From Cycloclasticus sp. symbiont of Poecilosclerida sp. M (lineage in GTDB: Bacteria; Pseudomonadota; Gammaproteobacteria; Methylococcales; Cycloclasticaceae): a stretch of 33,906 nucleotides of DNA. Positions 2,034 through 4,969 of the stretch are shown here, in pieces (the stretch's first letter is position 1; every line of letters begins with the position of its first letter). Under the pieces are notes generated by a model. The model was not told where the DNA came from. It saw only the letters and a program-made list of their open reading frames with translations, and ran no database searches. Position numbers and translations under genes: made by a program. Where the stretch lies: assembly GCA_002101225.1 (NCBI GenBank), contig LWTN01000228.1, positions 1-33,906 of the forward strand, given 5' to 3'.

Positions 2034-3935
2034 ATGGCAACAAAGAGTAAAACATCTGATAAGGAAACACTGGGCTTTGAGACGGAAGTAAAACAAATCT
2101 TGGATTTGATGATTCATTCCTTGTATGGCAATAAAGAGATATTCCTCAGAGAGCTTATTTCTAATGCATCGGATGCAGCTGGTAAGTTGCGTTTTTCTGC
2201 TCTCTCCAATGAAGGGCTTTACGAAGGTGATGGTGATTTAAAAATTCGAATTGCGATTGATAAGAAAGCAAAAACACTGACAATTTCTGATAACGGCATC
2301 GGCATGACGATGGATGAAGTAAAGAAAAATATCGGTACGATTGCGCATTCCGGCACTAAGAAGTTTTTTAATAAGTTAACGGGCGACGAAAGCAAAGATA
2401 GCCAGCTTATTGGTCAGTTTGGCGTAGGTTTTTACTCGAGCTACATTGTTGCCGATAAAGTGACGCTAACCACTAGAAAAGCAGGTGAAGCAAAAGGTGC
2501 TGCGGTTCGTTGGGAGTCAGCCGGTGCCGGTGAATATACCGTTGAAACGGTAAAAAAAGAAACTCGTGGTACTGAGATTACGCTGCATTTAAAGAAGGGC
2601 GAAGAAGAGTTTTTAGAAAGCTATCGCGTACAGGAAATCGTGCACAAGTTTTCTGAACACCTCGATATCCCTATCGTGATGAAGAATGAGCACAAAGAAA
2701 AGGGCAGTGATGATCCAGATGAAACGACGGTCAATAGTGCAACGGCGTTGTGGGTAAAGGCGCGAAAAGACCTGAGCGACGAAGACTACAATGGTTTTTA
2801 CAAGCAAGTGTCACATGACTTCCAAGACCCGATGGCGCATTTGCACAGTAAAGTTGAAGGAACTAATGAATACACCTTGCTGCTTTATATTCCAGCTTCT
2901 GCACCATTTGATATGTGGGACAGAGAATCAAAACACGGTGTAAAACTATACGTTAAACGCACGTTTATTATGGAAGGTAACGAATTAATGCCGCGTTATC
3001 TGCGGTTTGTTCGGGGTGTTATCGACTCAGACAGCTTGCCACTGAATGTATCACGAGAAATTTTGCAACAAAGCAAACAGCTAAAGAGCTTGCGTTCAGG
3101 CGCTGTAAAAAAAGTATTGAGCTTAATTACAGGTATGGCGAAGAAAGAGCCAGAAAAGTTTGAAAAATTCTGGGCTGAATTTGGTGCGGTTATTAAAGAA
3201 GGCGTTATTAAGGACGAAAAAAACAAAGATAAAGTGATTAAGTTAATTCGTCTCGCTTCAACCAAAACAGATGGGAAGCAAACACAAACTTTGGCTGATT
3301 ACGTTAAGGAAATGCAAGAAGGCCAAGAGAAAATTTATTATTTAACGGGTGATAACTATGCGAGCATTAAGAACAGCCCACACTTAGAAATTTTCAAAAA
3401 GAAAGGCATAGAAGTCTTATTAATGACAGACCACGTGGATGAGTGGCTCGTGCAGCATATGCCTGAATTTGAGGGCAAACAATTACAGTCTGCGGCAAAA
3501 GGTGATATCGATCTTGATGCAAGTAAAGATGATGCTAAGAGCGATAAGAAAGAGAGCAAAAAGGAAGAAGGTGAGCTAGATAGCACGGTTGAACAAATTA
3601 AAAAAGCGCTTGAGGGGAAAGTGAGTGAAGTTCGTCTAAGTACCCGTTTAGTTGATTCACCTGCCTGTTTGGTTTCGGAAGAAAATGCGATGGGCGTGCA
3701 TATGGAACGCATTATGAAAGCAGCTGGGAAAGAAATGCCCGTTAGTCTTCCAATATTTGAAGTGAATGCGGAGCACCCACTGATTCAGCGTTTAAAAGAT
3801 GAAGCTGATGATGATCGCTTTGCGGACTTATCTGGTTTGTTGTTTGAGCAAGCGGTGTTAAGTGAAGGTGGGCAGCTTGATGACCCAGCAAGTTTTGTGC
3901 AACGTTTAAATAAATTATTGCAAAGTTTGCTGTAG
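2034..3935 (+). CDS. htpG: Hsp90-family chaperone HtpG
   Basis: This is the cytosolic ATP-dependent chaperone of the Hsp90 family, 633 residues, the usual size. The N-terminal GHKL ATPase domain shows 'ELISNASDAAGKLRF' (ATP-contacting Asn/Asp; the common form is DAADKLRF), 'ISDNGIGMT' and the lid and glycine motif 'GQFGVGFYSSYIVADKV'. The middle domain carries 'LPLNVSREILQQ' with the Arg that senses ATP. A Lys/Asp/Glu-rich linker around residues 500-520 leads to the C-terminal dimerisation domain, which lacks the eukaryotic MEEVD tail as expected. The start is set by AAAGGA seven bases upstream. The gene is monocistronic, with a sigma-32 promoter in front and a strong terminator behind, so it is presumably heat-induced. 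Confidence 0.98.
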   Translation: MATKSKTSDKETLGFETEVKQILDLMIHSLYGNKEIFLRELISNASDAAGKLRFSALSNEGLYEGDGDLKIRIAIDKKAKTLTISDNGIGMTMDEVKKNIGTIAHSGTKKFFNKLTGDESKDSQLIGQFGVGFYSSYIVADKVTLTTRKAGEAKGAAVRWESAGAGEYTVETVKKETRGTEITLHLKKGEEEFLESYRVQEIVHKFSEHLDIPIVMKNEHKEKGSDDPDETTVNSATALWVKARKDLSDEDYNGFYKQVSHDFQDPMAHLHSKVEGTNEYTLLLYIPASAPFDMWDRESKHGVKLYVKRTFIMEGNELMPRYLRFVRGVIDSDSLPLNVSREILQQSKQLKSLRSGAVKKVLSLITGMAKKEPEKFEKFWAEFGAVIKEGVIKDEKNKDKVIKLIRLASTKTDGKQTQTLADYVKEMQEGQEKIYYLTGDNYASIKNSPHLEIFKKKGIEVLLMTDHVDEWLVQHMPEFEGKQLQSAAKGDIDLDASKDDAKSDKKESKKEEGELDSTVEQIKKALEGKVSEVRLSTRLVDSPACLVSEENAMGVHMERIMKAAGKEMPVSLPIFEVNAEHPLIQRLKDEADDDRFADLSGLLFEQAVLSEGGQLDDPASFVQRLNKLLQSLL

Positions 3936-3975: not shown

Positions 3976-3999
3976 AAGGCGGACAGTGTCCGCCTTTTT
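3976..3999. terminator. Intrinsic terminator after htpG, probably two-way
   Basis: AAGGCGGAC (3976-3984) and GTCCGCCTT (3988-3996) form a perfect 9-base stem with a 3-base loop, followed by T's to 3999. On the minus strand a T-rich run (complement of the A run at 3969-3974) also follows the stem, so it can also end transcripts of the convergent His-rich gene. Confidence 0.88.
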
Positions 4000-4036: not shown

Positions 4037-4462
4037 CTAAAATCCAAAAAACAAATTTAAGCCGTGGTGTGGGCGAATATGCGCGTACCTATACTGAGGC
4101 GTGTAATAGTGCTTGTAATGCTTGCGGGCCACGTATTTAGGGTAGTAATGTTTATAGCCATGGTTCGCTACGTAGTGGCGACCATAATGATTGTGATCAT
4201 GGCGTGATGAGTGACCAGTATGCTTGCCAGAGTGGCTATAGTGCTTATTATGTTTGTAGTGTTTATACGCGTGACGTTTAGCATATTTTTTGTCATATTT
4301 TGAATGCGAATAATGATGACGCGCCGATTTGTGTTGTTCGCTATATTTATTGTGCTCGTGCTGCTCATGAGTCGAGCCATGGGGTTTAGCGATTGCAGTT
4401 CCACATAAAAGCAAAAGCGAAGCTGCCGCCAAAAAAGTTGTTAAAATTGTTTGCTTAGTCAT
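4037..4462 (-). CDS. Small secreted histidine/tyrosine-rich protein, unknown function
   Basis: The 141-residue product has a clear Sec signal peptide (MTKQ, a hydrophobic stretch rich in Leu/Ala, ending ..GTAIA before KPHG, cleavage near residue 25). The mature part, about 116 residues, has 26 His and about 18 Tyr plus many Lys/Arg, arranged in irregular motifs such as HxH, KHYKH, HYSHSGKH and RHDHNHYGRHY. It has no Cys and ends in the hydrophobic 'GLNLFFGF'. I recognise no family. The composition suggests binding of divalent metal ions in the periplasm or outside the cell, but this is inference. A ribosome site AAGGA precedes the ATG. The reading frame is favoured over overlapping frames by the signal peptide and ribosome site. 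The gene stands alone between the htpG terminator and queF. Confidence 0.7.
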   Translation of the reverse strand: MTKQTILTTFLAAASLLLLCGTAIAKPHGSTHEQHEHNKYSEQHKSARHHYSHSKYDKKYAKRHAYKHYKHNKHYSHSGKHTGHSSRHDHNHYGRHYVANHGYKHYYPKYVARKHYKHYYTPQYRYAHIRPHHGLNLFFGF

Positions 4463-4546
4463 GTCGATGTCCTTACTGCCACTGCAGTTTTGTTAATGTG
4501 CAGTGAAAGGATAAGCGCTGACGATGAATCTAAACTGAATGGAATT

Positions 4547-4590
4547 AAACTTTTATTTAAAAGTTTAAAGAACTCCTTTTTATGGGAGTT
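4547..4590 (-). terminator. Possible weak terminator after queF
   Basis: Read on the minus strand, AACTCC..GGAGTT (4590-4571) forms a short stem across the queF stop. It is followed by a second perfect 8-base hairpin, AAACTTTT..AAAAGTTT (4566-4547), in very AT-rich sequence. The stems are weak, so termination here is uncertain and read-through into the His-rich gene is possible. Confidence 0.35.
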
Positions 4591-4969
4591 GAACGGGTGT
4601 GGATGAGTTCCAGTCTACTTTTTTGTGTTCGACTACAACAGATGTATATACCCCGCCACGAACATTAAACTCGGCTGTTAAGCGCATAAAGCGTGGCTGG
4701 CAAACGGCAACCAAGTCATCGAGAATTTGATTTGTAACTGCTTCATGAAAAGCATCTTGCTCTCTATAAGACCATATATAGAGTTTAAACGACTTTAATT
4801 CGACGCAAACTTCGTCAGGTACGTATTCAAGTGTTAATGAGGCAAAGTCGGGCTGCCCAGTTTTAGGGCAAAGGCAGGTGAATTCTGGCGTGTCGATGCG
4901 AATGGTGTAATCGCGATTTGAATTAGGGTTGTCAAAGGTTTCTAGATTTGTACTAGCGTGTGTGCTCAT
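4580..4969 (-). CDS. queF: NADPH-dependent 7-cyano-7-deazaguanine reductase, short type
   Basis: QueF reduces preQ0 to preQ1 with NADPH in the synthesis of the tRNA base queuosine. The protein has 129 residues, the single-domain (YkvM-like) form of the tunnelling-fold family, and not the ~280-residue two-domain form of E. coli. '[14 protein letters not shown]' contains the catalytic Cys34 and Asp41. '[13 protein letters not shown]' (58-70) is the QueF motif that binds NADPH and separates the family from GTP cyclohydrolase FolE, and 'FHE' follows. The gene is read away from smc. The ribosome site in front of the ATG is poor, but no better in-frame start is visible. No other queuosine genes are nearby. 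Confidence 0.93.

Follow-up and report, generated by a model that had tools for sequence, protein, structure and literature searches.

OprH of Pseudomonas is a beta-barrel. Like the protein described here it is basic and belongs to the envelope, and an excerpt of PMC4244539 places it in the outer membrane, with PhoP/PhoQ control given in a title cited there. MucE, also of Pseudomonas, is likewise a small envelope protein, for which excerpts of PMC8545111 and PMC3819740 describe a functional C-terminal tail ending in F (WVF) and an AlgU-dependent promoter. Small, exported, His-rich proteins that are disordered are already known, an example being SilE (PMC5008109, in extract). SilE and PcoE resemble the present protein in being small, exported and His-rich, and the same extract describes SilE as linked to metal stress and as disordered in the metal-free state, binding via conserved His and Met motifs and gaining helix with Ag+.

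Exported proteins that are short and of low complexity tend to be set aside as unassignable. Here we describe one that is rich in histidine and tyrosine (H/Y), encoded in a Cycloclasticus contig of 33,906 nucleotides, the whole of which is referred to as the window. Conservation extends to its composition, C-terminal tail, promoter and genome position, each of which can be tested separately. We found no description, in the literature searched, of a loosely ordered composition, a fixed tail and a response-regulator box together. No open-access paper was found that joins Cycloclasticus with the term histidine-rich, and searches for His-rich periplasmic or disordered envelope proteins returned nothing similar among the matches listed.

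The gene, its product and its conservation

The open reading frame lies on the minus strand, on which the preliminary description was silent, with its ATG at 4462-4460 and a TAG at 4039-4037. The features of the gene and its surroundings are as follows.

4037-4462, minus strand: coding sequence (141 aa; the coordinates include the stop) for the exported H/Y-rich protein, from the reading frame, syntenic orthologs and dN/dS
4388-4462, minus strand: predicted signal peptide, residues 1-25, with Ala25 invariant in 14 members
4064-4387, minus strand: mature region rich in H/Y/K/R/N/S/Q, without predicted fold (composition, AlphaFold)
4040-4063, minus strand: C-terminal tail GLNLFFGF, fitting the pattern hydrophobic-x-hydrophobic-x-hydrophobic-x-F-end, as do 14/14 members
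4470-4474, minus strand: ribosome-binding site AAGGA, from the sequence
3976-3996, minus strand: terminator-like hairpin 3' of the gene, between it and the convergent htpG
4580-4969, minus strand: conserved upstream neighbour, which we take to be queF
2034-3935, plus strand: conserved convergent neighbour, which we take to be htpG

Because a ribosome-binding site, a terminator-like hairpin and orthologs at the same place across the genus accompany it, the frame is a true gene. The other loci inspected also show, by eye, such a hairpin 3' of the gene.

The mature part of 116 residues contains 26 His (22.4%) and 18 Tyr (15.5%), with 19% Lys+Arg, a net charge of +17 and neither Cys nor Met. These counts confirm the 26 His, about 18 Tyr and lack of Cys given in the preliminary description. 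Export, also claimed there, is borne out as a prediction, residues 1-25 being signal-peptide-like with A-I-A at the end, as judged by eye. Among 58 comparison ORFs of at least 250 aa, drawn from 12 further Cycloclasticus loci as well as the window and so forming largely orthologous sets, not 58 independent proteins, His averaged 2.0% (maximum 4.7%) and His+Tyr never exceeded 7.8%. In an AlphaFold model built with 13 sequences the mean pLDDT was 55.5, and a signal helix at residues 3-21 was both the sole secondary structure and the sole confident part; by this model the mature H/Y-rich chain is probably largely unstructured. A lipoprotein identity was considered and rejected: on inspection, by the lipobox rule, LLLLC-G of the window protein is no lipobox, its Cys position is not conserved, and Ala25 is.

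The gene stands alone in its genome, as had been noted before, and by eye no metal genes were seen adjoining it in the window. Elsewhere in the window, at 360-1748, transposase-like sequence extends over two consecutive ORFs (360-659 and 714-1748, by eye), perhaps an interrupted or frameshift-expressed insertion sequence.

Assignment to a known family had not been possible at first reading, and the profile libraries agree, with no Pfam or NCBIfam match near its cut-off. The window protein reached at best 12.6 of 27 bits in Pfam and 8 of 78 bits in NCBIfam, 13 members gave no Pfam match at E<=0.1 and NCBIfam matches far below cut-off, and a PDB sequence search with the protein and with the profile gave no match. 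Three weak NCBIfam resemblances, each in one or two of the 13 members, all begin in the signal peptide: the VPA0510 family (NF052668; E 0.0014 and 0.03, residues 1-49 and 3-49, 19.2 of 95 bits), the PtrA N-terminal domain (NF041599; E 0.011, residues 6-27, 15.7 of 31 bits) and OmpX (NF006917; E 0.0088, residues 7-83, 15.9 of 176 bits).

Ortholog loci were gathered via the queF neighbour (63 QueF loci); a single-sequence scan of the genome contigs with the H/Y protein itself gave no relative. The preliminary description had named absence from related genomes as evidence against its proposal, and this objection does not hold. An intact H/Y-rich ortholog is present between htpG and queF in 14 of the 18 genus genomes, convergent with htpG wherever the locus includes both; these 14 are the members referred to throughout. 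A fifteenth genome (G003) carries a diverged ortholog, L022, at the same place, with 9% His, 6% Tyr, 19% K+R, a net charge of +11 and L as its C-terminal residue. queF was found in 16/18 genomes, the two without it being 73% and 58% complete. At queF of G016 no H/Y-rich ORF was seen by eye; there queF has no normal end and a transposase-like ORF lies nearby. Among the H/Y-rich ORFs listed for 51 QueF loci outside the Cycloclasticus group (L033-L083), none was exported-looking like the window protein, again by eye. In G007 a small contig (C18; L020/L115/L117) bears a further copy of the gene with a broken frame, which adjoins a queF fragment, retains an intact promoter box and perhaps comes from another strain in the bin.

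The sole pair with unsaturated dS (L025/L027) gave a dN/dS of 0.21. The ten closest pairs include nine others, five with 0.16-0.28 at dS 1.5-1.9 and four with saturated dS. The gene is real, conserved and under purifying selection. That it is a low-complexity remnant evolving almost neutrally, for which nothing but export would be selected, is very improbable and already disfavoured: the middle sequence diverges fast, and the gene is decayed in G003 and not found at its place in G016, but dN/dS is about 0.2, tail and promoter are conserved, and 14/18 genomes have kept it.

Composition, residue order and the C-terminal tail

Members are 18-31% identical to the window protein. Their middle regions align above z=3 relative to shuffles in 42/91 pairs, and in 3 of the 13 pairs that involve the window protein. 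The residues H/Y/K/R/N/S/Q/G/P make up 76-85% of the mature part in 14/14 members, Cys is absent from all, and one Met occurs in total. Composition is thus conserved, and residue order partly so. Such a pattern is expected of composition-driven disordered proteins, and would suit a structural or adhesive surface polymer, whose H/Y/K-rich chain would form coacervates or cross-links within the matrix or envelope. We consider this doubtful. Neither a dedicated regulator-type promoter nor retention in a Bathymodiolus symbiont (L023) suggests an adhesive, and Gly is scarce, at 3.8% of mature residues, a composition from which known coacervating H/Y proteins differ.

Across the 14 mature parts His ranges over 11-23% (13 to 29 residues per protein), Tyr over 9-19%, Lys+Arg over 16-22% and net charge from +15 to +21. 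A check for conserved His spacing, proposed in the preliminary description, found none of the HxH type in the 14 members, which have 0 to 3 HxH each. Since His count and spacing vary, specific binding sites are unlikely on the sequences, which argues against SilE-like fixed sites and favours a loose sponge or else a polymer that responds to pH.

Net charge and Lys+Arg content vary less among the members (coefficients of variation 0.11 and 0.09) than His or Tyr (0.19 each), and the diverged L022 still has its 19% K+R and net +11. Both points speak for an outer-membrane stabiliser like OprH, a basic protein induced by a PhoP/PhoQ-like system that would fill divalent-cation sites of lipopolysaccharide, His and Tyr being secondary. 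OprH itself offers the precedent (PMC4244539, in extract). We rate such a role as unlikely, although it is the strongest of the competing explanations: the protein is no barrel, and low Lys/Arg variation may just mirror low-complexity drift.

The tail is the most conserved part apart from the signal peptide. Counted from the end, position -8 is G (12/14), -7 is L/F/I, -6 N/R/S, -5 V/L/I, -4 Y or H (12/14), -3 L/F, -2 R or K (11/14) and -1 F (14/14). The strict tail pattern fits 14/14 members, compared with 0/75 genus ORFs of at least 200 aa, 7/255 ORFs of other loci and 5/70000 random strings of the family's own composition. Among genus outer-membrane C-termini it fits 3/60 TonB/Toluene_X rows and 6/30 OMP_b-brl rows, where the termini were picked by script, some TonB/Toluene_X rows (e.g. 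L150, L161, L177, L180) lack overlap with the match, several of the OMP_b-brl rows are wrong ORFs or weak matches, and all rows were retained in the counts. An outer-membrane beta-signal was considered and given less weight: the canonical polar-x-G-x-x-hydrophobic-x-hydrophobic end, taken from an excerpt of PMC10945584, occurs in 0/14 members, and the shorter hydrophobic-x-hydrophobic end in 14/14. A published 10-residue regular expression for the beta-signal (PMC3582582, in extract) matches 7/14 members, 38/60 TonB/Toluene_X rows, 18/75 ordinary genus ORFs and 9757/70000 random strings. The tail resembles the ends of outer-membrane barrels, in sequence.

A second use for such a tail would be signalling. 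As in MucE, whose C-terminal peptide activates AlgW (excerpts of PMC8545111 and PMC3819740), the exposed, Phe-ending tail could engage the PDZ domain of a periplasmic HtrA-type protease (DegS/AlgW) and set off a sigma-E-type envelope response, with the H/Y chain as sensor or spacer. The conservation of the tail and its F in 14/14 members agree with this, but DegS recognises YxF (PMC3582582, in extract) and AlgW is activated by WVF, and position -3 here is L or F; moreover L022 ends in L, and a relative from outside the genus (G174, below) in D. We regard signalling of this kind as improbable.

Promoter, leader and two-component links

Upstream of the coding sequence, alignment of the leaders revealed three further features.

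4523-4540, minus strand: direct repeat ATTCAG-N5-ATTCATC, a box of the OmpR-family response-regulator type (aligned leaders)
4508-4513, minus strand: -10-like TATCCT, 10 bp past the second half-site, TTAT.CT being invariant in 14 leaders
4463-4507, minus strand: 5' leader with a weak form of an inverted repeat that is stronger in other members and there pairs with the ribosome-binding site

TTCAG-N6-TTCATC, with a period of 11 bp, is present in all 14 leaders; TTATCCT or TTATTCT follows at constant spacing, and each leader also has a ribosome-binding site. A direct repeat of this geometry close upstream of a -10 marks targets of the OmpR family, and the geometry and place of the box fit an OmpR-family response-regulator target. 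The cre/blr tag TTCAC-N6-TTCAC is similar to it (PMC3660660, in extract). When the box plus -10 was sought with <=3 mismatches in the 18 genus genomes, 15 of the 16 sites lay before an H/Y gene (14 intact, one the frame-broken copy) and the sole site elsewhere, in G004, had 3 mismatches. The gene has a dedicated promoter element of its own. No box within 3 mismatches precedes L022, whose H/Y richness is lost, so that box and H/Y composition go together in G003.

In the leader the -10 and early leader would pair with the ribosome-binding site through the inverted repeat. Folding of the full leader gave z of -6.6, -5.8, -4.8 and -7.0 in four members (L024, L028, L025, L021), and -2.1 in the window (4463-4513). 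A riboswitch or thermometer was rejected: the stem is lost when the leader is cut to the transcript start guessed from the -10 (z -0.7, -2.1 and -2.8 in three members), and covariation in the inverted repeat is no greater than in shuffles. The leaders of L023, L029 and L032 have roughly 50 nt extra, with hairpin-like repeats, just before the ribosome-binding site; Rfam gave no match on four loci, these three being covered.

Across 311 genomes of the order, the box plus -10 with <=2 mismatches occurred at 18 further sites, compared with 2 for a reversed control. At 11 of the 18 an exported or lipoprotein ORF, export being judged by eye, starts <=250 nt downstream; the remaining 7 are intragenic or lack an ORF of this kind downstream. 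A crude signal-peptide rule marks 80/255 background ORFs as exported, so that 11/18 is an enrichment, though the cases are not independent: three are one glycine-zipper lipoprotein (28-29 nt) and three one exported protein, with Ig-like and cytochrome domains in its G049 copy. Among six box-site target proteins compared with Pfam, two had no match. The glycine-zipper lipoprotein gene of other genera (L226, L227, L230, L239) has a near-match box 28-29 nt (three) or 189 nt upstream of its start. Near-matches of the box also lie, in L247 (G103) and L244 (G169), near a small exported cytochrome-like gene, sulfide-dehydrogenase-like flavoprotein genes and a possible multicopper oxidase (by eye); Pfam gave no match for the small cytochrome-like gene.

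Some box sites adjoin two-component genes. In G169 the box precedes an exported gene; a regulator of the OmpR type, with its kinase next in order, is transcribed divergently from this gene. In G290 the box has on one side a kinase that the contig end truncates and on the other, by eye, a TonB-receptor-like gene. Over 249 aa the G169 and G290 kinases share 53% identity.

A third case came from searching 251 order-level and 369 class-level genomes with the profile, genus members included in both. Outside the genus these matched 13 genomes of the order (E 1.8e-5 to 0.009) and 3 of the class (E 2.7e-8 to 7e-4), such matches being prone to compositional bias. The best order match, in G174 (L102; E 1.8e-5), was found without using the box. 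It is an exported protein of 122 aa, with a mature part of 96 residues containing 20 His (21%), 10 Tyr (10%), no Cys or Met and a net charge of +6, and its end, NFSFLLRD, resembles by eye LNLYLR(F) minus the final F. At +6 and ending in D, it indicates that the polycation and the terminal F do not extend beyond the genus. Its start is preceded, at a distance of about 68 nt, by TTCAGCTTTCATTCAG, which differs from the original box at 2 positions; among ORFs of loci selected independently of the box, 4/864 had a box with <=2 mismatches upstream, and 0/864 the reversed box. G174 is absent from the order-wide box list above, for which the pattern included the -10. The match behind its homology is compositionally biased.

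Downstream of the G174 gene, and in its orientation, come genes for an OmpR-type regulator (Pfam PF00072+PF00486) and then for a kinase with PhoQ as its best NCBIfam family. Regulators of G174 and G169 are 43% identical and their kinases 32%. Every NCBIfam score of these four proteins, those for PhoQ and PhoP included, is below the curated cut-off: in G174 the kinase reached 211.6 of 497 bits (PhoQ) and the regulator 211.1 of 336 for PhoP and, at best, 225.3 of 250 for RppA; in G169 the kinase reached 135.9 of 497 bits (PhoQ closest) and the regulator, closest to PmrA/QseB, 196 of 330 for PmrA. All two-component genes seen linked to the box or to an H/Y relative come from three genomes of other genera (G169, G290, G174). 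They suggest that a PhoQ-like system controls the H/Y gene through its OmpR-type regulator, the regulator in Cycloclasticus being inferred. The likeness of these kinases to PhoQ adds to the case for an OprH-like stabiliser, against which the G174 relative keeps His and Tyr, yet has a charge of only +6.

The class-level match in G437, a distant gammaproteobacterium, outscores G174 (E 2.7e-8; L240, 643-1008, minus strand) and is an exported H/Y/R-rich protein of 121 aa with 7% His, 12% Tyr, a Cys-containing C-terminal stretch and a tail that differs from those of the Cycloclasticus members. It has no box (5 mismatches), and no regulator match was obtained within the 2.5 kb examined. Reading through the class-level loci L240-L242 found the conserved tail in none. 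A filter for H/Y-rich ORFs was applied to the 14 loci (L102-L114 and L116, in 13 genomes) that the order contributed from beyond the genus. Besides L102, four (L106, L107, L111, L114) gave by eye Tyr/His-containing exported, short shadow, cytochrome-like and glycine-zipper-like ORFs instead, and the other 9 gave no ORF under the filter.

Proposed function and comparison with known systems

The reading that we tentatively prefer, as a fair possibility short of a probable one, is a disordered, H/Y-rich envelope protein that is induced by a response regulator and serves as a sponge for cations, either metal or proton. An OmpR/PhoP-type response regulator would turn the gene on via the gene's own promoter, where the box is observed and the regulator inferred. 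The predicted signal peptide would be removed, and the mature chain would stay largely unstructured. Its dense His/Tyr and Lys/Arg, without Cys or Met, could make a soft, high-capacity binder of transition metals (Zn, Ni or Cu(II)) or of protons at mildly acid pH, presumably at the periplasmic face of the outer membrane, where the conserved C-terminal strand may dock the protein on an envelope partner. The net role would be to soften cation stress in the envelope, as a cation sponge made on induction.

The residues that would do the work are pointed to in two directions: the H/Y-rich but weakly charged G174 relative favours His and Tyr, and the tight Lys/Arg content within Cycloclasticus favours charge. 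A bolder version of the sponge, which we think improbable as a whole, is a pH- and metal-responsive layer of a disordered H/Y polymer, self-made and conserved in composition, docked to the outer membrane by the single C-terminal strand and under two-component control. It would be an inducible organic cation buffer, replacing or standing beside lipopolysaccharide modification, and possibly a feedback ligand of its own PhoQ-like sensor, because the G174 relative is encoded just before that sensor system.

PhoQ-type sensors read cations and cationic peptides, and the regulatory element links the H/Y protein to a sensor system resembling PhoQ. If the proposal is true, an inducible disordered-protein layer would be added to the handling of envelope cation stress in Gram-negative marine hydrocarbon degraders and mussel symbionts, and the function of other H/Y-rich orphan proteins could be approached through their promoters.

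The family is set apart from each of the described systems. Unlike SilE, it has one Met in 14 mature regions, no conserved His positions and no Pfam or NCBIfam match. Unlike OprH, the H/Y protein is a chain without predicted fold and with one candidate strand. In contrast to the WVF end and AlgU-dependent promoter of MucE, its tail is mostly (Y/H)(L/F)(R/K)F and its gene lies behind an OmpR-type box.
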